Assembly: GCA_022828145.1 (NCBI GenBank)
Contig: JAJEJA010000073.1
Span: forward strand, 62,001 to 126,000
Direction: 5' to 3'
Origin: Candidatus Poribacteria bacterium
Lineage (GTDB): Bacteria; Poribacteria; WGA-4E; WGA-3G
Length of the DNA stretch: 64,000 nt
Part shown: piece after piece, positions 19,705-62,896 of the stretch
Layout of the letters: each line of letters begins with the position of its first letter
Numbering within the stretch: the first letter of the stretch is position 1
Position numbers and translations under genes: made by a program
The notes under the pieces: generated by a model
What the model saw: only the letters and a program-made list of their open reading frames with translations
Databases searched by the model: none
Told to the model about the DNA's origin: nothing

Positions 19705-22188
19705 TCAACGAATTATCTTTACATTGATTACAGGACTATCTTGTGTAAATGCTTGACCGTTGATTATTGCTGTTGCGCGGAATCTAACCTGATATGTTTT
19801 GGCTTCAAGAGAACCCAATGCCTTCAGGTCTACCGTAACATCATTCTCATTGATAGGTATCGTTGCATCAGGAATAGTAATGCCTTCAGGTACTGTTATC
19901 GGTTTAATCGTAACAGTATCCGTAAAACTCCCGCGTCGAACTATACTCATTGTAAGTTTTGCTGATTTGGTTGTCGAATCAACTTTTTCTGTATCTACAG
20001 GATCAGTCTGTTCCGTTGGTGGTGGATTTGAGACAGCGACGGTTTCTGTTTCATCAGATGCTACCTTATCATTTTCTTCAGCTTTTGGAAAAACGATGCT
20101 GAATCGGAGCGGTTCAACTGTCACGATGAAAGGTGCTTCAACGACCGTTAGCGGTATAGCAGGAGAAGACTCCGTATAGTTCTCTCTATTTACATTTGCT
20201 GACCCGCTAACTGAGATATAGCTTGTTCCTGGTGTGGGAACAACCGAGAACTGTTCGCGGCGTTCAACAGTTCCTGCTCGGAGTGAAATCACGGTACTGT
20301 TCTGTCCTGCTGGAATTGTTGCTTTTCCACCTGAAATTCGTGCTGGCACACCTTGAACGGAGAGTCCGATAGGACCATTAAAGCCACCTTGTCGGTTAGC
20401 AATCACATGAAAGTTCGTAGTTTTGTTGTGGGTAACGCTTATCTCAACATCAGCGAACGCAAGCGTGAATGGCGGTTCGTCCAACACAGTGAGTAAGATT
20501 GCTTTCGGTGTTGTAGATGATTCTATACGATTACCCCCTATAGCACCAACACCAACGATTGTGAAAGGATGAAGACCGAGGGGTGCATCAATAGGTGCCG
20601 TGATCGTTAAAAGTGCCTGGTTCTGACCGGGATACATAATCGTTGGACTTACGATGAAACCTTTTGGCAGATCTGGCGAGTAAAATCTAAGCGCGCCGTT
20701 GAACCCATCTAAACGTGCAGCAGACACTGTGATCATGAAGGTTCCGCCACGTGCAATTCGAGGATTATCTGCATTAACATTGATACGAAAATCAGGTTTT
20801 AAGGGTCTAATCGTTAGTCTGTATGGATAGTCCTCTCCCCCCGAACTGTTTAGGTCACGGATAGATAGTCCATAGTTACCTGCCTCTGGAAATGTGAAAG
20901 TAGTCTGTGCGTCCGTTCCGCTTGCATCATCATTGACGGTCAAAACCTGTTCGGTCACACTCTCCGCAGTTTCTCCCTGTTTATGAGAGTATATTGTCAG
21001 AATTGGGTCCAGTTTAGACCGATGCTGACGCGAATTGACACTACAGACTAATCTCGCGCCCTTCTCTACTTTGATCATATAGCGATCCACATCACCCGCT
21101 TTCTGTATTTTTCCATTGACAGTTATCGGTGTTCCTATTGCGTTCTCCTGCTTGAGTGCATCATTCGGTTCATTCTCGTTAGTCTCATTGAATTCACCGA
21201 TTGTGAATGGATAGGGATTGGTTTCTAACCCGTTAGGCGTTGTGACCCGCAACTCCTGAATACCGATCTCAGCGTCAGGTGAGATGTCAAGTTGTAGTAT
21301 ACTGATTGAAGCTAAATTGGCACCTGAAACAGTGACGTTATTCACTGCCCCCCGTTTGCCACCCAGTGGAAAGACGTTATGAAGATACGGTAATTCCCCG
21401 ATACTTAACCGATATCTATAATTTCCTCCACCCTGAAAGCGAACATCACGAAGGTTTAACGTGAATTCTCCTTCCACCTGCGTTGTGTAATCAATAAATG
21501 AGTCTAATCCGTTCCCATCCCTACTTTTTGTAACTTCTTTACCATTTGGGTCATATAGTTCTAAGTATGTGTCTAATGGTGATCCCATTCGTTGCGCACT
21601 AATATCACATATCAAACGTGCGCCCTTCTTTAGTTTGAATTTAAACGAATCCAGATCATCAATTGAGGAGACTACCCCGCTCACTGTAACAGGTAATTCA
21701 AGCATGTTTGCCTGTTCAGGAACACTGTTTGGTTCTTTTTCGTTTATTTCAGGAAGATTTCCAACTAAGAAGTTCTGTGGATTGGATACGCCGTTTGATG
21801 TAATAAGACGAATCTGATGGTTACCTAAAGGCGCATCTGGTGTGATCTCAAATGATAGAAGTAAGCGGGGGTTGCTTGGAACTTGACCGGAGATACCAGA
21901 GCCGTCAAACCGAACAGTGGGGGTTGGTGTTCTCTGTTTTATTTCTGCGTTGATACCCTTTTTGTTCAACCATATTTCAGCGTTCTCATCAATGTTTTTT
22001 CCTTCTAAGACAATTTCAATTGTTTGACCCCGTTGTGCTGATGTTGGTGATATGCTTGTTAACTGCGGTGCAACTTGTGCATGGACAATACCCGTTGCAG
22101 CAAAAAGGATAACAAGTAACTGAAACAGGATTATTTTACGGAATAAGATTTGGGTTTTTGCTTGCTTGCAAAGTAATGAAGCTAACAT
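19705..22188 (-). CDS. Secreted IPT-like / pre-peptidase C-terminal (PPC) multidomain protein
   Basis: Signal peptide-like N-terminus; APQLTSISPTSAQRGQTIEIVLEGKNI; repeated NEKEPNS...DDLDSFKFKLKKGARLICDISAQ PPC modules. Confidence 0.75.
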   Translation of the reverse strand: MLASLLCKQAKTQILFRKIILFQLLVILFAATGIVHAQVAPQLTSISPTSAQRGQTIEIVLEGKNIDENAEIWLNKKGINAEIKQRTPTPTVRFDGSGISGQVPSNPRLLLSFEITPDAPLGNHQIRLITSNGVSNPQNFLVGNLPEINEKEPNSVPEQANMLELPVTVSGVVSSIDDLDSFKFKLKKGARLICDISAQRMGSPLDTYLELYDPNGKEVTKSRDGNGLDSFIDYTTQVEGEFTLNLRDVRFQGGGNYRYRLSIGELPYLHNVFPLGGKRGAVNNVTVSGANLASISILQLDISPDAEIGIQELRVTTPNGLETNPYPFTIGEFNETNENEPNDALKQENAIGTPITVNGKIQKAGDVDRYMIKVEKGARLVCSVNSRQHRSKLDPILTIYSHKQGETAESVTEQVLTVNDDASGTDAQTTFTFPEAGNYGLSIRDLNSSGGEDYPYRLTIRPLKPDFRINVNADNPRIARGGTFMITVSAARLDGFNGALRFYSPDLPKGFIVSPTIMYPGQNQALLTITAPIDAPLGLHPFTIVGVGAIGGNRIESSTTPKAILLTVLDEPPFTLAFADVEISVTHNKTTNFHVIANRQGGFNGPIGLSVQGVPARISGGKATIPAGQNSTVISLRAGTVERREQFSVVPTPGTSYISVSGSANVNRENYTESSPAIPLTVVEAPFIVTVEPLRFSIVFPKAEENDKVASDETETVAVSNPPPTEQTDPVDTEKVDSTTKSAKLTMSIVRRGSFTDTVTIKPITVPEGITIPDATIPINENDVTVDLKALGSLEAKTYQVRFRATAIINGQAFTQDSPVINVKIIR

Positions 22189-22370
22189 AATTATTACCTC
22201 TAATGCAAGGACGTAATAGATTGTTGTGCGTTTTTAATGGGACATTTTACACTGTAGGAGGGAACTCCGATTCCCGACTATCACTACGTAAAGTCGTGAT
22301 TCGGAGATCGCTCTTACAGGTACTTTGTATCGTTATTTCAATGTTCACTATAATATTATAAATGGTATTA

Positions 22371-22414
22371 GAAAACCTGCACGTAAACTCATGAACGTTC
22401 AAGTGCAGGTTTTC
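22371..22414 (-). terminator. Hairpin/intrinsic terminator downstream of the DUF1501 gene
   Basis: 12-bp stem GAAAACCTGCAC ... GTGCAGGTTTTC. Confidence 0.6.
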
Positions 22415-22429
22415 GGAACCGTAGCGAAT

Positions 22430-23878
22430 TTAGAATATACCTGTAATGACTTCACCTTTGACTAATTCTCTGGGTTGGTCTAAGTGGTTCATCACGATTG
22501 TGTGTGGGTCAATACCGAGTGTATGGTAGATGGTAGCGAGTATATCGCGCGGATGTACCGGTTTTTCAAGTGGTGTTGAACCAGTTGCATCTGACTTACC
22601 ATAGACCTGACCTCCTTTGACACCTGCGCCTGCAATTAGTCCGGTATAGCAATAGGGCCAATGATCGCGGCCATCGGGTGCGTTTCCATTACCTGATGTA
22701 CTAACACCCATTCTTGGTGAACGTCCAAATTCTCCGATTGCCAGAACAAGCGTATTCTCTAACATACCGCGTTGCCCTAAATCTTCAAGGAGTGAGGATA
22801 CAGCACTGTCTAACTTCGGACAGTGTAAGTTTTTCAATGGACCAAAGTTTGCTGCATGTGTATCCCACGCGGTATCGTTCGGATTTCCGTTTGCTACTGA
22901 GGGCCAATTCACCTGAACGAATCGTGTACCTGCTTCAACTAAACGTCTTGCAAGTAGGACACTTTGTCCGAAAGTATGTCGTCCATATTTGTCCCGCATT
23001 TCATCAGTTTCCTGGGATAGATCAAACGCATTTCGTGCCTTCTGAGATAAGATGAGATCATACGCCTTCTCATAGTATTCGTTGAGTGCGTAATCATCAG
23101 CGACTTTGTCAATCTCAGGCATATTTGCATTAATTGTCTCAAGAAGCGTTTTTCTACGTTGTAATCGCATCGGTGGAACTTCTGGACGGAGTGTCAAGTC
23201 GTCAAGTTTAATGTCTTTATTCGGGTCTTGGAAGAGGAAGTATGGGTCATAAGATCTTCCGAGGAAACCAGCATTTCCCCCTTTACCGATGATATTACTC
23301 TCCTGCATGGGTCTCGGTAGTTGTACAGCAGCTAACATCGGTTCTTCTGGGGGTCTAAACTTTGCGATATGTGCAGCTGCATTCGGATGGTCAGCAGGAG
23401 ACGGTGGATCAAGCTGTCCTGAGGGTGCAACTTTATCCGGTGTTTCACCTGTAACCATCTGATACATTGCAGCAGTGTGATTGAAAAGTCCTGCCGGTGT
23501 GTAACTGACTGAGCGTATGAGACAAGCCTTATCCATCTGCTTCGCAAGTTTCGGCATTGTTTCAGATAATTGAATTCCAGGTACATTTGTTGGAATCGGA
23601 TTGAATTCACCGCGTATATTAGAGGGTGCATTCGGTTTTGGGTCCCAGATATCAATGTGGCTTGGACCGCCTTGCAGGAACAGCAGAATGACAGAATCTG
23701 CTTTCCCCCATCCGTTGAGCGGTGCTGCAGGTGCGACAGCTGTATTTGCCTTTGCTTGAAGAGACAATACTTGTGGTAGACTAATCCCGAGCATCGCCGC
23801 GCCACCTACACGTAGGAATTCCCTGCGTGAGAATCCATCACATAGTCTTCCGGGAGCTTGTGGTAACGATATCATCAA
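22430..23878 (-). CDS. DUF1501 domain-containing protein
   Basis: CDGFSRREFLRVGGAAMLGISLPQVL Tat-like N-terminus; FLQGGPSHIDIWDPKP; IGEFGRSPRM; GRDHWPYCYTGLIAGAGVKGG. Confidence 0.92.
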   Translation of the reverse strand: MMISLPQAPGRLCDGFSRREFLRVGGAAMLGISLPQVLSLQAKANTAVAPAAPLNGWGKADSVILLFLQGGPSHIDIWDPKPNAPSNIRGEFNPIPTNVPGIQLSETMPKLAKQMDKACLIRSVSYTPAGLFNHTAAMYQMVTGETPDKVAPSGQLDPPSPADHPNAAAHIAKFRPPEEPMLAAVQLPRPMQESNIIGKGGNAGFLGRSYDPYFLFQDPNKDIKLDDLTLRPEVPPMRLQRRKTLLETINANMPEIDKVADDYALNEYYEKAYDLILSQKARNAFDLSQETDEMRDKYGRHTFGQSVLLARRLVEAGTRFVQVNWPSVANGNPNDTAWDTHAANFGPLKNLHCPKLDSAVSSLLEDLGQRGMLENTLVLAIGEFGRSPRMGVSTSGNGNAPDGRDHWPYCYTGLIAGAGVKGGQVYGKSDATGSTPLEKPVHPRDILATIYHTLGIDPHTIVMNHLDQPRELVKGEVITGIF

Positions 23879-23957
23879 TTATTTCCTCCATGTTATTTAT
23901 GTCTAACTTCTATTTTACAATTATTTTAGTAAATAGTGACACAAATCAGTATTGGAC

Positions 23958-26447
23958 TTATCGGTTAAATAAGAATGCTGGACTATTTATCAATGCCCAC
24001 ATTAAATCTTGTACGCCTTCTTCTTTAGATTCAGCATTCGCAAAATATTCAACCGCAGTAGCATATTCGTTATCTTGTGGTAACCGAGCAAGTGTTGCAA
24101 GATACAACTCTTCAACGATAAATCTATCGTCTTTTTCCTCCTTGAGTAGTTTTGCAATTCGTCCATTCGGATCAATAACTGCATTGGCAACTGTCGGACC
24201 GTTAATTAGGTTCATAGCATGTGCAAGACTAACATCAGATGTGCGTTCACATTCACAGGAACTTTCGCGCTCAGGACGACCGAATAATTTTAGGAATCCA
24301 TCATCCTTTACTTTACTGTCAGGTAATTGCACTGCGCGTAAGTTCTTTGGCACGCCTTCAAACTTGGGTTGGCTTCCCGTTGCAACACCGATCGCGTCTA
24401 ACAACTGTTCAGCAGTCAGTCGTCGAGCTATTGCATGTGAGAAGTTGATCGTATCCTCTTTGTTCCACTTGTTGGTCTTGATGCTTTGTTGATATGTCCG
24501 CGATCGTGCAATTGTCTTCATGATATGTTTCATGTCAAATCCACTTTCTACGAAATCTTTTGTCAATGCATCAAGCAGTTCCGGATTGCTTGGTGGGTTG
24601 CTTGATCGGATATCATCGACCGGTTCAATGATACCACGTCCCATAAAGTAGCTCCAAATTCTGTTTGCCCCTGCTTTTGCAAACTTTGGGTTTTCAGCAG
24701 AGGTTAACCATTCTGCTAAGGCATCTCGTTTGTCAGCTGCATCGTTTCTTGTTTCTCCGAATGGCACAGAAGCTTCAACGACAGCCAATGTTCTTGGATG
24801 TTTTACAGGTGTAGGGTTAAAACTTGCATAGACGACCTCTTCACCGGGTAATCGTCCGTTCTTTAGTCTAACATTAGAGAAAAACGCCCCAAGTTCATAG
24901 TATTGGTTTTGTGTCCATACCTCAAACGGATGATCATGACATTTATTACATGAGAATCGGACACCTAAGAATAATTGGGTGGTGTTTTCCACTGCTACAG
25001 TATATTCACGTGAAACGCGAAAATAATTCGCAGCAGGATTCGCATAAGTACTTCCTGTAGCTGTAATCAGGTCATGCACAAATTTGTCATAAGGACGGTT
25101 CTCTGCAATTGCTTCATGAATCCACTCTTTGAATAACCACATACCGCGTTCACCGAGGAATTTTCTGTTAGACTGTAACAGGTCTCCCCATTTGCGTGTC
25201 CAGTGGTCAACATATTCTGTTGAATTAACTAACACGTCAATCAACTTCTCACGTTTCACTTTAGATTCTGTTTTATCCATTAGGAAACTACGTACCTGTT
25301 CAGGCGTAGGTGGGAGTCCAGTCATATCAAAGTGAATTCGTCGCACAAACTCTTCATCCGTACATAATTCTGAAGGAAGGATTTTCAACCTTTTGAGTTT
25401 ATTGTGGACGTGCGTATCAATGTAGTTGTATCCTGGCGTTTCAACCCATTCGTAACCGCTACGGTCACCCATCACGATAATACCGTTTGTGCTATATGCC
25501 CCTTCGTAACGTGTGAGTATAGCAGTTTCACCGCGTCGTTCTGCCGTTACAACACCGTCATCTGTAACCTTAGCAACTTCATTAACACTGCTCGTGAATT
25601 TTGCTTCACGTGTTACGTCACGTGTTGTGCCATCAGGATAATGCGCGATAACGATTAATTGTTGCATCGACCCCGGCATTGACAGTTCAGCAGAATCAGG
25701 AAGAACCTCCAACCTTTCTACACGTTGTGTTTTGCCGACATCAGAAACAACACCTTCACTGATCCACTGATGTATGAGCCGATAATCACGTGAATCTGGT
25801 TTGATCACCTGTCCACCTTTGTGTGGCACTTCGGATGTAGGTTTCAGCAGCATAAGACTCTGTTCTGGAAACGCTCTATTAAAACGTCTACCTGATATAT
25901 CCTCAATCAAAAGTTCGTAATCAAACTCAGGATCATAGCCGCGTAATGAGAGTTTGAAACCGTTCTTGCCTTTTGCACCACCATGACATGTTCCATTGTT
26001 ACACCCCGCATGACTCAGAATAGGCATCACATCTCGGACAAAACTGACAGGTGGTGTGTCAATGCTCTTGACATTAATTGGTAAATCAATATCAAGATTT
26101 TTTACGGTAACTTTTAGATTTGTCGGACCAACAGTTTTAGGGAAAATGTAGCCATCATCAAGTACTTTCACACCGTCTGATGTCGGTTTGAGAACTGCCC
26201 AAGATGTTACATCAATCCAACCTCCATCTTTTGTCTGTCCTGAAACCAGTACTCGCCTGCCGTCGCGAGCATGTTCCAAAGTTAGGGACTCAGGAATAGT
26301 TTTTAGGGTTGTTATTTCAGGAATCTCTACACTTAATTCACTCTCTTCCATTTGACTCCAGACCGTAGGTTGACATATCAAACAGCAAGAGAATGCTATA
26401 AGAAGTGTAAGAACTATATTATGGCTGGGTTTCACGTTTACCTCCAA
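23958..26447 (-). CDS. DUF1549/DUF1553 (planctomycete PSD1-type) protein with N-terminal cytochrome-like CxxxCH
   Basis: DVMPILSHAGCNNGTCHGGAKGKNGFKLSLRGYDPEFDY; FSCNKCHDHPFEVW; WSYFMGRGIIEPVDD. Confidence 0.9.
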   Translation of the reverse strand: MEVNVKPSHNIVLTLLIAFSCCLICQPTVWSQMEESELSVEIPEITTLKTIPESLTLEHARDGRRVLVSGQTKDGGWIDVTSWAVLKPTSDGVKVLDDGYIFPKTVGPTNLKVTVKNLDIDLPINVKSIDTPPVSFVRDVMPILSHAGCNNGTCHGGAKGKNGFKLSLRGYDPEFDYELLIEDISGRRFNRAFPEQSLMLLKPTSEVPHKGGQVIKPDSRDYRLIHQWISEGVVSDVGKTQRVERLEVLPDSAELSMPGSMQQLIVIAHYPDGTTRDVTREAKFTSSVNEVAKVTDDGVVTAERRGETAILTRYEGAYSTNGIIVMGDRSGYEWVETPGYNYIDTHVHNKLKRLKILPSELCTDEEFVRRIHFDMTGLPPTPEQVRSFLMDKTESKVKREKLIDVLVNSTEYVDHWTRKWGDLLQSNRKFLGERGMWLFKEWIHEAIAENRPYDKFVHDLITATGSTYANPAANYFRVSREYTVAVENTTQLFLGVRFSCNKCHDHPFEVWTQNQYYELGAFFSNVRLKNGRLPGEEVVYASFNPTPVKHPRTLAVVEASVPFGETRNDAADKRDALAEWLTSAENPKFAKAGANRIWSYFMGRGIIEPVDDIRSSNPPSNPELLDALTKDFVESGFDMKHIMKTIARSRTYQQSIKTNKWNKEDTINFSHAIARRLTAEQLLDAIGVATGSQPKFEGVPKNLRAVQLPDSKVKDDGFLKLFGRPERESSCECERTSDVSLAHAMNLINGPTVANAVIDPNGRIAKLLKEEKDDRFIVEELYLATLARLPQDNEYATAVEYFANAESKEEGVQDLMWALINSPAFLFNR

Positions 26448-26498
26448 ATTTGGTATGAAACTTGACGAAACGGGACATTCCGTTTCATATACTATTCG

Positions 26499-27314
26499 CT
26501 ATTTCTTGTTTTTCAAATGACCCCATGTTACTGATAATTTACCTGTAGGTGAGACATCTGAGAACTCAGACTCACCTGCTAACCAATTAATTACGTTCTC
26601 TGTAAGTTGCTCTAACTGTTCTATACTCTCGTTGTTCTTGTGATAGTTTGGAAGACGCCAGTTCATATTGAAGACTTTACCGTTACCAACTTTCCAATAA
26701 CCGAACGCAGCGATTGCATCTGCATAGTTCGTTGTTCGTTCCCAAGCATGTGCCAGTGTGGTAAAGTTCTTCCAGATTTTGTTATAGTAGTCACCACTTA
26801 ATGGAAATCCGGTTGAATTTACCTGAACCCAATCGTCTACTTTAGGTGCATCACCATCAACATTTTCTAATCCTTCAACCAGACCCAAGTCAAGAGTTTC
26901 TTTAAGGACAATTATGCCAACGTTTGTCCCATCATTTTCGTTAGGACCAAACGCACGTGGATCTGCATCTTCAAGTCCCATTGGTGTTGCGTAACTGAAG
27001 GCTTTCCCTGTCAAGAGGACAGCCCCGCCACTTTCGGCATAGTCAATAAATGCATCCAATTCTGCATTTGACAAATCACCTGGGTCAGAATCACCGTCAT
27101 GCCACCAGACAACCCCAAATTTCTTGAACATTGCACTTTTAATATCACTTTTTGCTAATTGACTTGTCTTGAACGTTTTTTCTGCAAATTCCAATGCTGG
27201 TGCAGTAAATGCGCCACTATCACCAAGAGATAGAAAACCGACTTCAAAAGCGATTGCTGTATTTAAACCACAAATCAACAAAAGAATCAAGCAAATTGTT
27301 GTTTTTCGGGTCAT
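26499..27314 (-). CDS. Exported hypothetical protein, possibly ThuA/glutamine-amidotransferase-like
   Basis: Signal peptide MTRKTTICLILLLICGLNTAIA from an ATG at 27314 (track start 27371 lies in a repeat); VVWWHDGDSDPGDLSNAELDAFIDYAESGGAVLLTG. Confidence 0.65.
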   Translation of the reverse strand: MTRKTTICLILLLICGLNTAIAFEVGFLSLGDSGAFTAPALEFAEKTFKTSQLAKSDIKSAMFKKFGVVWWHDGDSDPGDLSNAELDAFIDYAESGGAVLLTGKAFSYATPMGLEDADPRAFGPNENDGTNVGIIVLKETLDLGLVEGLENVDGDAPKVDDWVQVNSTGFPLSGDYYNKIWKNFTTLAHAWERTTNYADAIAAFGYWKVGNGKVFNMNWRLPNYHKNNESIEQLEQLTENVINWLAGESEFSDVSPTGKLSVTWGHLKNKK

Positions 27315-27328
27315 TTTTTCTCCAATAA

Positions 27329-27410
27329 GAACGGCACAACGGAGTGTGCCTACTACTATTAAGAACGGCACAACGGACTGTGTCTAATACTTTTAAAGAA
27401 CGGCACACAA
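27329..27410. repeat. Cluster of AACGGCACAC(A)-type short repeats
   Basis: agaacggcacaacggagtgtgcctactac / aagaacggcacaacggactgtgtctaatac / aagaacggcacac; relates to 10591-10617 and 42026-42099. Confidence 0.55.
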
Positions 27411-27412
27411 AC

Positions 27413-29014
27413 TTACTCAGCAGTTGCAGTAAATCCCGCGGATTCTACGACTTTAAAAAGTTCATCAACTTTAACACTATCCTTACGTACTTTAATGACT
27501 GCTTGATTGGGTAAAGAGACTTTAGCAGAAATGACGTTTTGGTGTTTTGTAAGTGCATCCTGCACTTTAGCAACGCATACAGGTCAGGTCATACCAGAAA
27601 CAGCAAGCGTGATATCTTCACTTGCGGCAGTTTCAATAGGTACCGACATGAAAACGTTTAATAGGTCCCCGGTCTGCACATCAAATATACGTACTTTTCC
27701 ATCAAAACCACCTGCTGCAAGTTGTGTGCCTTCAGGGTGAAACGCAATAGCAAAAACGCTTACTGTATCTGCCTCTACCGTCAATAACCTTTTTCCATCA
27801 GAAACATTATAGACACGGACTTCACCAGCTGAACTACCGACGGCAAATTTGTTACCATCAGCTGAGAAAGCTACAGCATCAATAGAGCCTGCTTGTGCTT
27901 CGTAGGCACGGATTAGGTTGAAGTCTGTATTACCAACATCTCTACGTCTTTGACGGAACATTCTGTAAAGACGCGGAATTCTATCCTCCCCTACACTAAG
28001 AACCTGATCAGCATTTGGATGTCTTGCGATAGCGTTGATCTCCCCATATCCTTTGTTGCTTGAGTTAACATCGTCCACGAAAGACCCTGTATCTACCTCA
28101 ACTAACTTCAGAGCAGTGTCACGGCTGCAGCTGACAAAATGTGTTCCATCGGTAGAGAAAACTGTACCAAAAACCCAATCGCTGTGATTGTCGAATTTCA
28201 CAAGTTCCTTTTCATCATCAATAGATATAACGCGCACTGTCTTATCTGAGCTTCCAAACGCGACGCGTTTTGCATCTGGTGAGAATGAAAGTCCATAGAT
28301 TGTATCATAAGTTGACCTAATTGTCTTGATCAATTTATTTGTTGTAGCATCCCATAGTTGCACTTCACCGAACTGAGCGGGTGAACCCCCAGCGACACCT
28401 ATCGTCTTACCATCCTTCGTATAAACAATTGATTGTATCCTACGTGCTTTACCAACAAACCGTTCTTTTATCTCATAATTCTCAGTATCATACAGCAGTA
28501 TTTCTCGTACGCCTGAAACAGCGAGTGTGTTTCCATCAGGAGAAAAGGTCATTGCCGAAATAACGGGTGGAACAGTATATACCGGTACTTCTTCATCGGT
28601 TTTGTCAGCATCTGTCGGTGTATCATCCTTCGCGCCTTCAAGAATCCATCTTCTGAATAGTGCCACTTCTTCATCCGTGAGGGGTTCTTGGTTCTGTGGC
28701 ATCGCCGGTGGATCACCCGTGATGAGTTCAATGATGAGACTATCATCAGGTTTATTGGGAATAATCGCTTCTCCACCCATTCCACCCCGTTTCAGTTCAG
28801 CGTAAGATGTAACAATGAAGTCTGCATTTGGATCACCTGGATGATGACATCCTTGACAACTTCTCTTAAGAATTGGCACAATCTGCTTGTAGTAACTGAC
28901 AGGTTCCTCTTTTTCATGACCATCAGACCGGACGTCATGAACAAAAAGAGAACTACTCATTAGGAATATGAACATCACAACAATATAAACTAATCCAGAT
29001 GTTTTCATTTTCAA
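27413..29014 (-). CDS. Predicted selenoprotein: exported PSCyt1 cytochrome-like + WD40 repeats + C-terminal HMA domain with Sec (UGA) at the first Cys of CxxC
   Basis: Track ORF stops at TGA (27584-27586) after ...EDITLAVSGMT; the same frame continues U-PVCVAKVQDALTKHQNVISAKVSLPNQAVIKVRKDSVKVDELFKVVESAGFTATAE to TAA (27413-27415), completing an HMA fold (GMT[C]xxC). N-terminus RSCQGCHHPG; WD40 blades throughout the centre. Confidence 0.85.
27551..27567 (-). promoter_or_regulatory. Candidate bacterial SECIS hairpin immediately downstream of the Sec UGA
   Basis: Minus strand AAGUGCA-GGA-UGCACUU: 7-bp perfect stem; GGA apical loop begins 23 nt after the UGA, with G at loop position 1. Confidence 0.75.
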
Positions 29015-31629: not shown

Positions 31630-34600
31630 TTAGGAAACCGCACCTACCAGGTTTGGCAATGCCTCCACAATCTCAACCGTCTGCAAACTGACGGTGATAA
31701 CCCGCCCAATCAAATCCACAATATATCGAGGCTGATCCGCACGATTCGGGTCGTTCACAATGCCGCTGCGTTTGTCCACCTTGACGCGATACTGATCTAT
31801 TATCCATTCTAATGCAGAACGCGTACCGAGGCGATAGTCAAACGCTGCAGCAGGGATACTGTCTATTGTGAGAAAATCGTTGTATACCAACTGCGTTTTG
31901 TCTATAGAGAGTTTCATTTTTTCTACACGCCAATCTATCGGCATGTCTGACGTTTCAATATATTTCAGACCATCATATTTCGGTTGCGACTCGTAGTTAA
32001 CGTGGATGTCTGCTAACTGTGCGCCTGCGTTGGCAAATCCCCAGAAATCTGGTGCCAACGGAATATGTGGTAAATCACGCTTAAGGTTCGCCTGATACTT
32101 TTCGCGATACTCGGGATGGTGCAGGAGAGCGTAGGTATAGTGGAAGATGTTCCACTTGCTGAGGCTGTCATCGCTGTAGTGTTTGCGAAATTCTGCCAAT
32201 GCCCAATCGGTGATGTTTTCTTTGCGGTTTGTGCCGTCTTCGTCGTAGGTGTAAAAGGGGAAACATTGAGATGGACAACCAAAACCACCTGCCACAACAA
32301 GGTTAGGAATACAGTCAGTGAGAAGGCAAGTAAAGGGTTTCTCAGAACCTTTATCAGTCAGACAAATCACTCTATTTTCAGTATCTGGTGTTGGGAAAGT
32401 GATGGGAAACATAGACATTCGATGGTTTAGAGTTCGGTCAAAACAAAGATTCATTTTTGTAAACGGGCGAAAAAGAGACAATCGGAGTTTTGATTCCGCA
32501 GATTCAGCAAGTTCTCCTTGTTCCAGTTTAAGCTTTAATCCTGAACTCCACTTAATTTTGGTGTCATCGTATTCCACAAACTCATTAACATCTCGTTCGC
32601 TTTCTGGAATTTCCCTGAACTTGAGGACATGCATATTGTAAAAATTACTAATCTGCTTTACGTTTTGGATTAGAACGTTCTCGTTAAAATTATAGAGCCA
32701 TGCATCTCTACTTGTTTGCAGCCCAACACTATAAGTTTTGAAAATTACATTTTCTGCCGCGCTTTTTACAGCCTTTGTTGTTTTGGTTCCTATTGGGATA
32801 AAGGTATCAAAATCAGCATGGAGTCCTTCGGTAAGCCAAGTATATCGTGCATTTGGTTGAATTGTTTGCCACTCAATACCATCTATGTACTGACTTTCAT
32901 TCAAAAAATCGAATTTTTTGTTTTTGTTCCATAGGTCATCGGTTCGATAATAAAAGATACGTGCTGTTTCTGATGGATCATGCTTTGTTTTGACAAAAAA
33001 GTTGATACTCACACCCACCCGAATCCCGAAAACATTGGCATCGGATACCTTCAATCCCTTCCGTGCATTACCGCATAAATCCATAACGTAGATAAAGTCA
33101 AAATCTTGTGCAAGGTGTTTTCGCATCCCATCAAACGCTATTCCATCAATGAAACTGTTGTTTGTAACAAACGCGACAATCCCCTCATCTCCGATTCGCC
33201 TTGATGCCCACAGTATCGCTTTTATGTATGGATCCGAAAGTGCGACTCTGGTTGTTGCTTTAGAGTCTTGTGAATACGTATCTTTTAGCATCTTATCTAT
33301 AGTTTCATACTTCCGATTTTTGTTGTTATCATTTTCATTCACTTGCCTCTTATTATACGGTGGATTACCTATCACAACAAACATATCCGCTTTTTTCCGC
33401 TGTTCTACCCGTTCTGTGTTTTCCTGTGTAAAGAGTTTTATCTGGCGTTGTTCAAGTAGCTCAAACGTATCCGCAAGGGTGATGCCTTCAAACGGTAGAT
33501 AGGTCTGTGTGCGCTGAAAGAACTCCTGCTCAATGTTCAGACTGGCGATGTAATACGGCAGCAGCATCACTTCGTTGCAGTGGAGTTCGTGCCGATATTT
33601 CTCCTCTAATGCTGTGCCTTGAATGTCCTGCATCAGTCGGACGATGAAGTTGCCTGTGCCGACAAACGGGTCAATGATATGCACGCTTGTGTCCGAAAGT
33701 GAACGTCCGAACTCAGTTTCAAGGATATGTGACACGCTTTTCACCATAAAATCTACAATCGGTTGTGGCGTATAGACAATGCCGTGTGTATCTGCGACAT
33801 CTTCAGAGAATCCCTGAAAAAACTTCTCATAGAAGGTGTTGAGGAAGTGCTGTTTTTGTGAGAAATCTCTGCAGAACGTGGCTGCTTGTTCAATGGCAAC
33901 ATAGAAGCGGTCTAAAGGTTTAAGGAACTCCTCGCGACTGAAGGCGTGGCGAATGAGCTCGTCAACGACATTTTCAATCTCGCGTGCGATGATATTTCTT
34001 CGGGTAAAGGCAGAGTTGTTAAAGACTGTGCGGAAGATGCGTTCTGTGAGAATGTGCTGGATAAGCATCTCCTCAACGGCAGCACGGGAAAGGTTGGGAT
34101 TGATGGCAGTGCGGCAAATCTCGTAAAAGTCGGTAAACGCTTTTCTGAACGTTGGGTCTGTCTCGTACCGTTGCTCAATCAATTCCATGAGTTTGCTTGC
34201 GAGATCAGGGACGTGCGATCTGAAGTCGTTAACGGCAGTCTGCCAATTGTCAAGTGCGGGTGCTGTGTATGCGAATAGATATTTGAGAGACTCAATCAGA
34301 TTTGAAGGCTCAGATATGTCCAAGTCCAGCGTGGTCTGTCCGTTCTGAATCAAGATACCGCGTTCTGGTGTTTGGAACAGGATATTGTCAAGTGGATAAC
34401 CTGCTTCGCGTTTTCGTTGTACTGCTATGTCAAGGTCATCATCAATATCTTTCGCTTCCCAATAGGCGATGGGCATTCCGTATTCGTTTAAGACAGCACC
34501 GTCAATCACGATGCGGTCACCTGTTGCGGAATGCATGGCGTATTGTGGGATAAGTGTTGCGTTTACCTGCTTGGCACAAGTGTTGAGAAGCGTTTCAAAA

Positions 34601-34710
34601 GGCGCGCTGACTGCACCTTCGTGTGTCACACCGTGCTGTTCGTATTGCTGTAACGTGGCGTAGTAGTCGCGGACTGGTTTGTGAGTCGGTTTTAGGTTGA
34701 GTTGAGGCAT
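31630..34710 (-). CDS. Solitary type IIG / type ISP-like restriction-modification enzyme (N6-adenine MTase plus PD-(D/E)XK)
   Basis: Nuclease-like VIDGAVLNEYGMPIAYWEAKD; MTase motif I IIDPFVGTGNFIVRLMQ; motif IV VIGNPPYNKRQ; no helicase region seen. Confidence 0.88.
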   Translation of the reverse strand: MPQLNLKPTHKPVRDYYATLQQYEQHGVTHEGAVSAPFETLLNTCAKQVNATLIPQYAMHSATGDRIVIDGAVLNEYGMPIAYWEAKDIDDDLDIAVQRKREAGYPLDNILFQTPERGILIQNGQTTLDLDISEPSNLIESLKYLFAYTAPALDNWQTAVNDFRSHVPDLASKLMELIEQRYETDPTFRKAFTDFYEICRTAINPNLSRAAVEEMLIQHILTERIFRTVFNNSAFTRRNIIAREIENVVDELIRHAFSREEFLKPLDRFYVAIEQAATFCRDFSQKQHFLNTFYEKFFQGFSEDVADTHGIVYTPQPIVDFMVKSVSHILETEFGRSLSDTSVHIIDPFVGTGNFIVRLMQDIQGTALEEKYRHELHCNEVMLLPYYIASLNIEQEFFQRTQTYLPFEGITLADTFELLEQRQIKLFTQENTERVEQRKKADMFVVIGNPPYNKRQVNENDNNKNRKYETIDKMLKDTYSQDSKATTRVALSDPYIKAILWASRRIGDEGIVAFVTNNSFIDGIAFDGMRKHLAQDFDFIYVMDLCGNARKGLKVSDANVFGIRVGVSINFFVKTKHDPSETARIFYYRTDDLWNKNKKFDFLNESQYIDGIEWQTIQPNARYTWLTEGLHADFDTFIPIGTKTTKAVKSAAENVIFKTYSVGLQTSRDAWLYNFNENVLIQNVKQISNFYNMHVLKFREIPESERDVNEFVEYDDTKIKWSSGLKLKLEQGELAESAESKLRLSLFRPFTKMNLCFDRTLNHRMSMFPITFPTPDTENRVICLTDKGSEKPFTCLLTDCIPNLVVAGGFGCPSQCFPFYTYDEDGTNRKENITDWALAEFRKHYSDDSLSKWNIFHYTYALLHHPEYREKYQANLKRDLPHIPLAPDFWGFANAGAQLADIHVNYESQPKYDGLKYIETSDMPIDWRVEKMKLSIDKTQLVYNDFLTIDSIPAAAFDYRLGTRSALEWIIDQYRVKVDKRSGIVNDPNRADQPRYIVDLIGRVITVSLQTVEIVEALPNLVGAVS

Positions 34711-61726: not shown

Positions 61727-62896
61727 ATGAAGAATTATCGTGTCGCAATATTAGGATGCCGTAGCAGAGGAACATCCGCAGCAAAAGCCTATCATGCACA
61801 TCCACGCACAGAAATAGTAGCACTCTGTGACCTTGTTGCGGATAGACTAACAGCTCTTGGTAAGATCGTCAATGTGTCTGCACAGTTCTCTGATGTAGAT
61901 GAAATGATTCAGCAGACGAAACCGGATATAGTTGCAATTCCGACAGCAACAGACTTGCACTACACGCTCTGTATGCAAGTGCTTGAGCACGGCGTGAACA
62001 TTGAAGTCGAAAAGCCGCTTTGTGTTGATTTAGTCCAAGCGGATACCATCCTCCAAAAGGCACAAGAGAAAAACGCTCGCGTCGTCGTACACCATCAACG
62101 CCGCGTAAGTCCAACTATCCAAGCCGTTGCAAAGGTACTTGATGCAGGAGAAATTGGTGAACTAAGATATATGTACGCATGTGGTAAAGGATACTATGCG
62201 GGGTACGGACTCATGAACATTGGAACGCATGTCGTTAACAATATGCTACGTTTCGGTGGACACTGTAGAAGTGTTGTGACACAAGCAACCGCTGGAGGAC
62301 GACAACTGACACCAGAGGATGTTATCCCTGCCCCTGCAGGAATGGGTATTGTCGCAGGTGAATATACCACATCAACGCTACAATTTGATAACAATGTCAC
62401 GGGTACATTAATTCAACAAAGATTTCAAAAGGTAACCAGTGATGCTTATGTGCTTGAACTCTACGGAAGTGAAGGGAGACTGTTCTGGTCTGAACTGAAA
62501 GGGGCATGGTGGTTACCAACCCCACATTTTCTCCCCGACGGTACGCATGACCAGTGGGAAAAACTGACACCTATCATTCCAGAACATTTCGACAAAGATA
62601 AAGATGCGGATATTGATGATTACTGTCTCGTTGACGAATATGTAAACGCACTTGATGAAGACCGAGAACATCAGTGTAGCGGTGAAGAAGGCCGTCATGT
62701 TATGGAGATCCTAATGGGCATATTTGAATCAGCAGTATATGGAGAACGTGTTGACCTGCCACAGAAAAACCGAGATCATCCGTTGCTCAGATGGAGAAAT
62801 GAAAACGGGTTAAGTACACCAGACGAAATGCCACGAGATTACGGTTCATGGTTGAATCAAGAAACTGAACGACTATACGGACAGAAGAAAGACTAA
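61727..62896 (+). CDS. Gfo/Idh/MocA family oxidoreductase
   Basis: YRVAILGCRSRGTSAAKAYHAHPR; LEHGVNIEVEKPLCVD; MNIGTHVVNNMLRF. Confidence 0.92.
   Translation: MKNYRVAILGCRSRGTSAAKAYHAHPRTEIVALCDLVADRLTALGKIVNVSAQFSDVDEMIQQTKPDIVAIPTATDLHYTLCMQVLEHGVNIEVEKPLCVDLVQADTILQKAQEKNARVVVHHQRRVSPTIQAVAKVLDAGEIGELRYMYACGKGYYAGYGLMNIGTHVVNNMLRFGGHCRSVVTQATAGGRQLTPEDVIPAPAGMGIVAGEYTTSTLQFDNNVTGTLIQQRFQKVTSDAYVLELYGSEGRLFWSELKGAWWLPTPHFLPDGTHDQWEKLTPIIPEHFDKDKDADIDDYCLVDEYVNALDEDREHQCSGEEGRHVMEILMGIFESAVYGERVDLPQKNRDHPLLRWRNENGLSTPDEMPRDYGSWLNQETERLYGQKKD

Follow-up and report, generated by a model that had tools for sequence, protein, structure and literature searches.

In a poribacterial contig, an open reading frame for a WD40 protein ends at a TGA that falls within a metal-binding motif, and the same frame continues beyond it. 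The locus thus raises the question of whether this UGA terminates translation or is decoded as selenocysteine (Sec), and what a Sec residue would do in a protein of this kind. The window analyzed here is the whole stretch of 64,000 nucleotides (positions 62,001 to 126,000 of contig JAJEJA010000073.1, assembly GCA_022828145.1), and the features discussed below are collected in Table 1. We put the probability that UGA 477 is decoded as Sec at about 0.93, a reading drawn from the read-through coding frame, the Sec machinery, the SECIS-type constraint downstream of the codon, the replacement by Cys in some orthologues and the recurrence of the UGA-plus-hairpin unit.

Reading frame, domains and gene neighborhood

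The initial annotation had proposed a read-through gene at 27413-29014, and this span holds; the strand, which it left unstated, is the minus strand. Translation from 29014 to 27413 with TGA read as Sec (U) yields 533 residues with a single internal TGA and a TAA at the end. The in-frame context of the TGA is ...EDITLAVSGMT-U-PVCVAKVQDALTKHQ..., and translation confirms that an HMA tail follows it, with 56 intact residues (PVCVAKVQDAL...TATAE), against the roughly 57 claimed, before the TAA at 27413-27415. The mechanical start of the frame is a TTG at 29014, but the ATG at 29006-29008, two codons further on and preceded by AAGGGTG, is the likelier start, which would give a product of about 531 aa.

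Table 1. Features of the putative selenoprotein gene and its neighborhood (coordinates in the window).
Feature	Position	Strand	Description and basis
Sec-HMA/WD40 gene	27413..29014	-	Signal peptide-like N-terminus, PSCyt1, WD40 propeller, HMA(Sec); TGA=U translation, Pfam, orthologue alignment
Listed ORF	27584-29014	-	476 aa, ends at TGA
PSCyt1 c-type cytochrome-like domain	28696..28858	-	CQGCH at residues 53-57, MP at 105-106; Pfam PF07635, alignment
WD40 beta-propeller	27638..28561	-	About residues 152-459; Pfam, Foldseek
HMA domain	27416..27613	-	Residues about 468-533, predicted beta-alpha-beta-beta-alpha-beta fold; Pfam PF00403, AlphaFold2, phmmer
UGA codon 477, predicted Sec	27584..27586	-	GMT-U-PVC, first Cys of HMA GMTCxxC; translation, orthologues
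Predicted SECIS apical hairpin	27552..27566	-	AGUGCA-GGA-UGCACU, begins 20 nt after first UGA base
290-aa protein of unknown family	26499..27371	-	Downstream, conserved near the gene in Poribacteria; Pfam, neighborhood comparison
PSCyt2 (DUF1549)-PSD1 (DUF1553) protein	23958..26447	-	Conserved neighbor; Pfam
DUF1501 protein	22430..23878	-	Conserved neighbor; Pfam
PPC-domain protein	19705..22188	-	827 aa, conserved neighbor; Pfam

The predicted product combines several domains. Its N-terminus is hydrophobic and signal-like, and near it lies a match to PSCyt1 (PF07635; E 1e-8, 36.1 bits against a cut-off of 22), whose CQGCH, a CxxCH heme-binding motif at which heme may be attached, is invariant among 14 aligned orthologues; the MP dipeptide is likewise called invariant. 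The structure predicted by AlphaFold2 (mean pLDDT 76.5) contains a propeller, for which the Foldseek matches are 7-bladed WD40 propellers (TM about 0.9, target-normalised), and a C-terminal beta-alpha-beta-beta-alpha-beta unit, in which residue 477 immediately precedes the first helix. When U is replaced by C, the Pfam HMA model (PF00403) spans the TGA (E 7e-11, 42.7 bits against a cut-off of 24.8), and in a phmmer search the tail sequence matched the HMA domains of copper ATPases, CopZ and MerP. The first Cys of the HMA motif GMTCxxC is the exposed ligand at which metal exchange begins. That the TGA sits on this very residue, as had been proposed, is borne out by the orthologues, since those with an HMA domain carry TGA or Cys exactly there.

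The set formed by PSCyt1-WD40, PSCyt2-DUF1553, DUF1501 and PPC proteins, with the neighbors at 19705-27371 on the minus strand, is common to Poribacteria and Verrucomicrobia and is found in part in Acidobacteria and Armatimonadota. The suggestion that the gene is the first of a DUF1501/DUF1553/PPC operon therefore stands as a conserved gene neighborhood. On the same strand, the window also encodes a Type ISP restriction-modification enzyme at 31630-34710 (Pfam Type_ISP_C, ISP_coupler and N6_Mtase).

Decoding of UGA codon 477

The source genome assembly (5.06 Mb, 94% complete) carries selA (593 bits), selB, selC and selD (370 bits), and the gene for tRNA-Sec (75.7 bits; anticodon TCA by ARAGORN) lies immediately downstream of selB. 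The selD frame itself holds one TGA, read as CAGUASK. Across the phylum, selB was detected in 76 of 85 genomes and tRNA-Sec in 73 of 85, and the genomes in which selB or selC was not detected are mostly the less complete ones.

A full-length or near-full-length orthologue, 67-93% identical and with an intact tail, occurs in 58 of the 59 genomes of the family (the gene is absent from G009), and each contains exactly one internal stop, a TGA. Every family copy inspected codon by codon has TGA at 477 and Cys at 480. The Sec codon is also TGA in a second family (f4; G082, G083, G084), and all 64 TGA-bearing copies inspected have it at the same codon, a recurrence well past anything chance would give, while a third family (f3; G073, G077 and G080, loci L053, L054 and L055) has TGT or TGC there. 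In the genomes of family f7 the protein stops short of the HMA domain. Similarly, in Verrucomicrobia, Acidobacteria and Armatimonadota the homologues sampled terminate ahead of the HMA domain and contain no Sec; the HMA tail therefore looks like a poribacterial addition. Neither nonsense nor frameshift decay was seen in the HMA tail among the orthologues examined, and a tree of the propeller part resolved no order between the Cys (f3) and Sec (f1, f4) states. Many close relatives of this bacterium presumably derive from sponges. Two genomes were observed with a second copy of the PSCyt1-WD40-HMA(Sec) gene, which in G001 (contig C53; L126/L063) is partial and directly follows the first and in G010 lies on a different contig.

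The candidate SECIS hairpin has the form AGUGCA-GGN-UGCACU in the orthologues, at exactly 20 nt from the first UGA base. Among 263 conserved amino-acid columns with synonymous alternatives in 56 orthologues, only three are free of synonymous change, V484 (GTG), Q485 (CAG) and A487 (GCA), and all three are hairpin codons; the mean top-codon frequency over the gene is 0.64 in the same orthologues. In all 148 distinct UGA-HMA modules the hairpin at +20 has a GUGC-N5-GCAC stem core and a loop that opens with G; this set is biased in that part of it was collected via the hairpin itself. The WD40-type gene, which contributes 61 of the 148 modules, was first collected by protein homology, not by the hairpin, and here the exact pattern occurs in 60 of 61 modules, the remaining one having a mismatch in the outer pair. 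The window has one match to the pattern AGTGCAGGNTGCACT, where none was expected, and the hairpin pattern was found in 64 of 85 Poribacteria genomes, against 0 of 85 for a reversed control pattern. Of the 41 matches examined, three lack a UGA at -20 and seem to be fortuitous or unrelated.

The Cys orthologues show drift in the 3' arm or the loop (AGTGCAAACTGCGCT in L053, AGTGCAGAGCGCGCT in L055 and AGTGCAGAGTGCGAT in L054); six pairs are still possible in L053, but its loop is AAC, with no G. The positive control, E. coli fdhF, reads GGTTGCAGGTCTGCACC after its UGA and shares with the poribacterial hairpin an apical core, GCAGG...UGC, just downstream of the codon, although the E. coli element has a loop of 4 and a bulged U, whereas the poribacterial one has a 3-nt loop and no bulge. 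An Rfam search gave no SECIS match. Covariation among 26 distinct modules amounted to one compensatory change, equalled in 181 of 500 shuffles, and four of the six pairs never vary; with so little variation in the stem, covariation lends the hairpin no statistical support. The case for a SECIS is built on synonymous constraint, position and recurrence. The reading of UGA as Sec put forward in the initial annotation is supported by the sequence comparisons: selA, selB, selC and selD are all present in the source genome, codon 477 is TGA or a Cys codon throughout the orthologues that have the tail, which is undecayed, and a bacterial-type hairpin with synonymously constrained codons lies at a suitable distance.

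Other explanations of the TGA fare poorly against the same observations. If it were a genuine stop, as TGA ordinarily is in the source genome, the HMA tail would be decaying or would belong to an unrelated downstream gene; yet the tail is intact in 64 TGA-bearing copies from four genera of one family plus a second family, the Cys orthologues read straight through and the hairpin is under constraint, which makes this highly improbable. Nonsense decay in particular was rejected on the intact orthologue tails and the constrained hairpin codons. An altered genetic code, in which UGA stands for one of the standard amino acids in this lineage, would also account for a frame that is open when UGA is sense. 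However, UGA terminates 5 of the 30 long ORFs in the window and even the Sec gene itself in family f4, where three Sec-bearing orthologues (L056-L058) end on it; moreover, a complete Sec machinery is present, and the UGAs in HMA modules always fall on the Cys site and come with the hairpin. We regard such a code as very unlikely, and global reassignment was rejected, UGA being seen as an ordinary terminator in the source genome. Finally, the genomes compared are nearly all metagenome-assembled, and a TGC or TGT might have become TGA by sequencing or assembly error, but the identical TGA recurs across dozens of assemblies made independently, single-contig chromosomes from other projects among them, so that the chance of such an error is negligible.

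Further predicted Sec-HMA genes in Poribacteria

The source genome contains two further Sec-HMA genes in tandem (G000:C54:1146-1994; L052:1146-1994). They encode small proteins with lipoprotein-like signal peptides and the motifs GMTUGSC and GMVUSSC, and each has a UGA with the hairpin 20 nt downstream. Similar small Sec-HMA genes occur in most genomes of the family, commonly as tandem pairs. In addition, genes for poly-HMA proteins were found in five genomes, every UGA having its own hairpin at +20. The one in G050 (contig C30; L230:3149-4576) has four UGAs and one Cys repeat, and those in G045, G021, G003 and G002 have three UGAs and one or two Cys repeats. An artefact of repeat assembly is made less likely by the low contig numbers of the G003 and G002 assemblies, 2 and 4 respectively.

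The Cys-type repeats stand at the end of the poly-HMA proteins (L230, L239, L240, L241, L242). The final Cys repeat still encodes VQDAL in G050 and G021 with the stem broken (GGTACAGGATGCACT), and in G045 the inner stem pair is lost (GGTGCAGGACGCACT). These final Cys repeats with a damaged stem are an internal control. The pairing of Sec with Cys repeats in one protein, with the hairpin intact or not, offers a natural test both of the contribution of Sec to the metal site and of the minimum size of a bacterial SECIS.

Sec-HMA domains also occur in larger proteins. In G009 (L236; contig C279, minus strand) and G013 (L191; contig C44) the domain is fused to about 400 further residues, and in G020 and G003 (L249, L253) a free-standing protein of similar size, with a common sequence block, is encoded beside Sec-HMA genes; Pfam gave no match for this free-standing protein. 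In G020 a cation-efflux (CDF) gene (L249:5100-5810) is found close to the Sec-HMA pair, which hints at a metal-related role. HMA-plus-SECIS might be a transferable poribacterial cassette, the SECIS being locked into HMA helix codons (VQ[D/A/G]AL). Its spread through several exported proteins, among them the poly-HMA ones with three or four Sec, would then have given sponge-associated and pelagic bacteria an extracellular system dedicated to handling soft metals by means of selenium. We offer this tentatively, as an idea with somewhat less than an even chance of being right.

Putative function and relation to known selenoproteins

We propose that SelB with Sec-tRNA(Sec) would recognize the hairpin just downstream of codon 477, Sec thereby being inserted at the UGA. 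The exported product would consist of a c-type cytochrome-like domain and a WD40 propeller, followed at the C-terminus by an HMA domain in which Sec-x-x-Cys replaces Cys-x-x-Cys. Outside the cytoplasm, Sec as the exposed first ligand would most likely confer higher affinity and faster exchange for soft ions such as Cu(I), Ag(I) or Hg(II), and the propeller and cytochrome part would probably cooperate with the neighboring PSCyt2/DUF1553 and DUF1501 proteins.

Metal binding, rather than another role, is the probable function of the Sec site, as suggested by the fold and by what is known of the family. The HMA(Sec) tail could instead be a redox center, in which a selenenyl-sulfide at Sec-x-x-Cys passes electrons to and from a partner or the cytochrome-like domain; redox motifs of the UxxC form are common in selenoproteins (PMC13188914), and an invariant CxxCH lies on the same chain. 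Against this stand the clear HMA fold with GMTxxxC, matching the domains of copper-transporting ATPases, CopZ and MerP, and the nature of the other UGA-plus-hairpin proteins, which are small exported HMA proteins of the MerP/CopZ type; one tandem pair has a gene for cation efflux nearby. Because the other carriers of Sec-HMA are of this kind, metal handling is favored over pure redox chemistry, which we consider rather unlikely. The UGA might additionally act as a selenium-sensitive switch, a 476-aa form without HMA, like the natural one of Verrucomicrobia, being made at low selenium and the HMA form when selenium is available. Homologues outside Poribacteria and in family f7 end naturally near this point, and the truncated product should therefore be stable; on the other hand, termination at the UGA would cost the small Sec-HMA proteins nearly their whole functional domain, so that a switch is not expected in them. 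Only in the WD40 protein could such a switch of length be imagined, and we think it unlikely.

Sec at an HMA-type metal site is of a known kind. The initial annotation had mentioned Sec-containing HMA or MerP-like proteins from selenoproteome surveys, and such entries exist: an inventory of 119 families (PMC13188914, 2026) includes a UxxC cation-transporting ATPase, a Sec mercuric transport protein (PF02411, C/SxxU) and a UxxU metal-binding family. Sec-containing MerP and a "putative mercuric transport protein" appear in the GOS survey (PMC2398784), with two GOS sequences each. The UxxC ATPase resembles the WD40 protein in its motif and metal-transport context but is a P-type ATPase, whereas the poribacterial HMA domain ends a PSCyt1-WD40 protein without an ATPase domain. 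The GOS proteins, compared by listing alone, have Sec in proteins of the mercury-transport type, not fused to PSCyt1-WD40; the Sec MerP entry is probably the nearest to the small poribacterial Sec-HMA proteins.

NCBIfam models of Sec-HMA proteins were rejected as a home for the WD40 protein, which scores far under their cut-offs. NF041115, a UxxU metal-binding (seleno)protein, similarly places Sec at the metal-binding position of an HMA-like domain, but it carries two Sec, in contrast to UxxC here; against its cut-off of 95 bits the WD40 protein scored 34.9 and two single-HMA proteins 34.8 and 52, and the 180 bits of a poly-HMA protein are a sum over five repeats and an unfair membership test for a single-domain model. 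NF045683, a MerT/CopZ fusion-like heavy metal transport selenoprotein, is likewise a larger metal-related selenoprotein with HMA, but the WD40 protein was unmatched at E 0.01 and the others fell far below the cut-off of 375, with only the CopZ part matched. Scores against the MerP model TIGR02052 (cut-off 92.55 bits) were 30.7 for the WD40 protein and 26.9 and 55.7 for the tandem pair of the source genome.

The cytochrome-propeller body itself is shared with PSCyt1-WD40 proteins of Verrucomicrobia, Acidobacteria and Armatimonadota, which are 41-48% identical to it and have many of the same neighbors (PSCyt2/DUF1553, DUF1501, PPC), but these end before the HMA domain and are without Sec, whereas the poribacterial protein has HMA(Sec). 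Searches of the open-licence literature returned no paper with both "selenoprotein" and "Poribacteria" and nothing relevant on WD40 heavy-metal selenoproteins. Standard annotation pipelines would probably record Sec-HMA genes as truncated. Judging from the sequences compared here, sponge-associated Poribacteria very probably read UGA as Sec at the first HMA metal position, both in the exported protein with the cytochrome and beta-propeller parts and in a set of small metal-binding proteins. Neither the PSCyt1-WD40-HMA(Sec) architecture nor the multi-Sec poly-HMA is in the inventory of 119 families (PMC13188914). New with respect to this inventory and to the GOS survey (PMC2398784) are that architecture, poly-HMA proteins with up to four Sec, and a rigid UGA-to-SECIS cassette common to paralogous domains. 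For multi-Sec prokaryotic families, PMC13188914 gives two to three Sec per chain (one to three being spoken of overall), a number that the HMA repeat protein with four UGAs would exceed.
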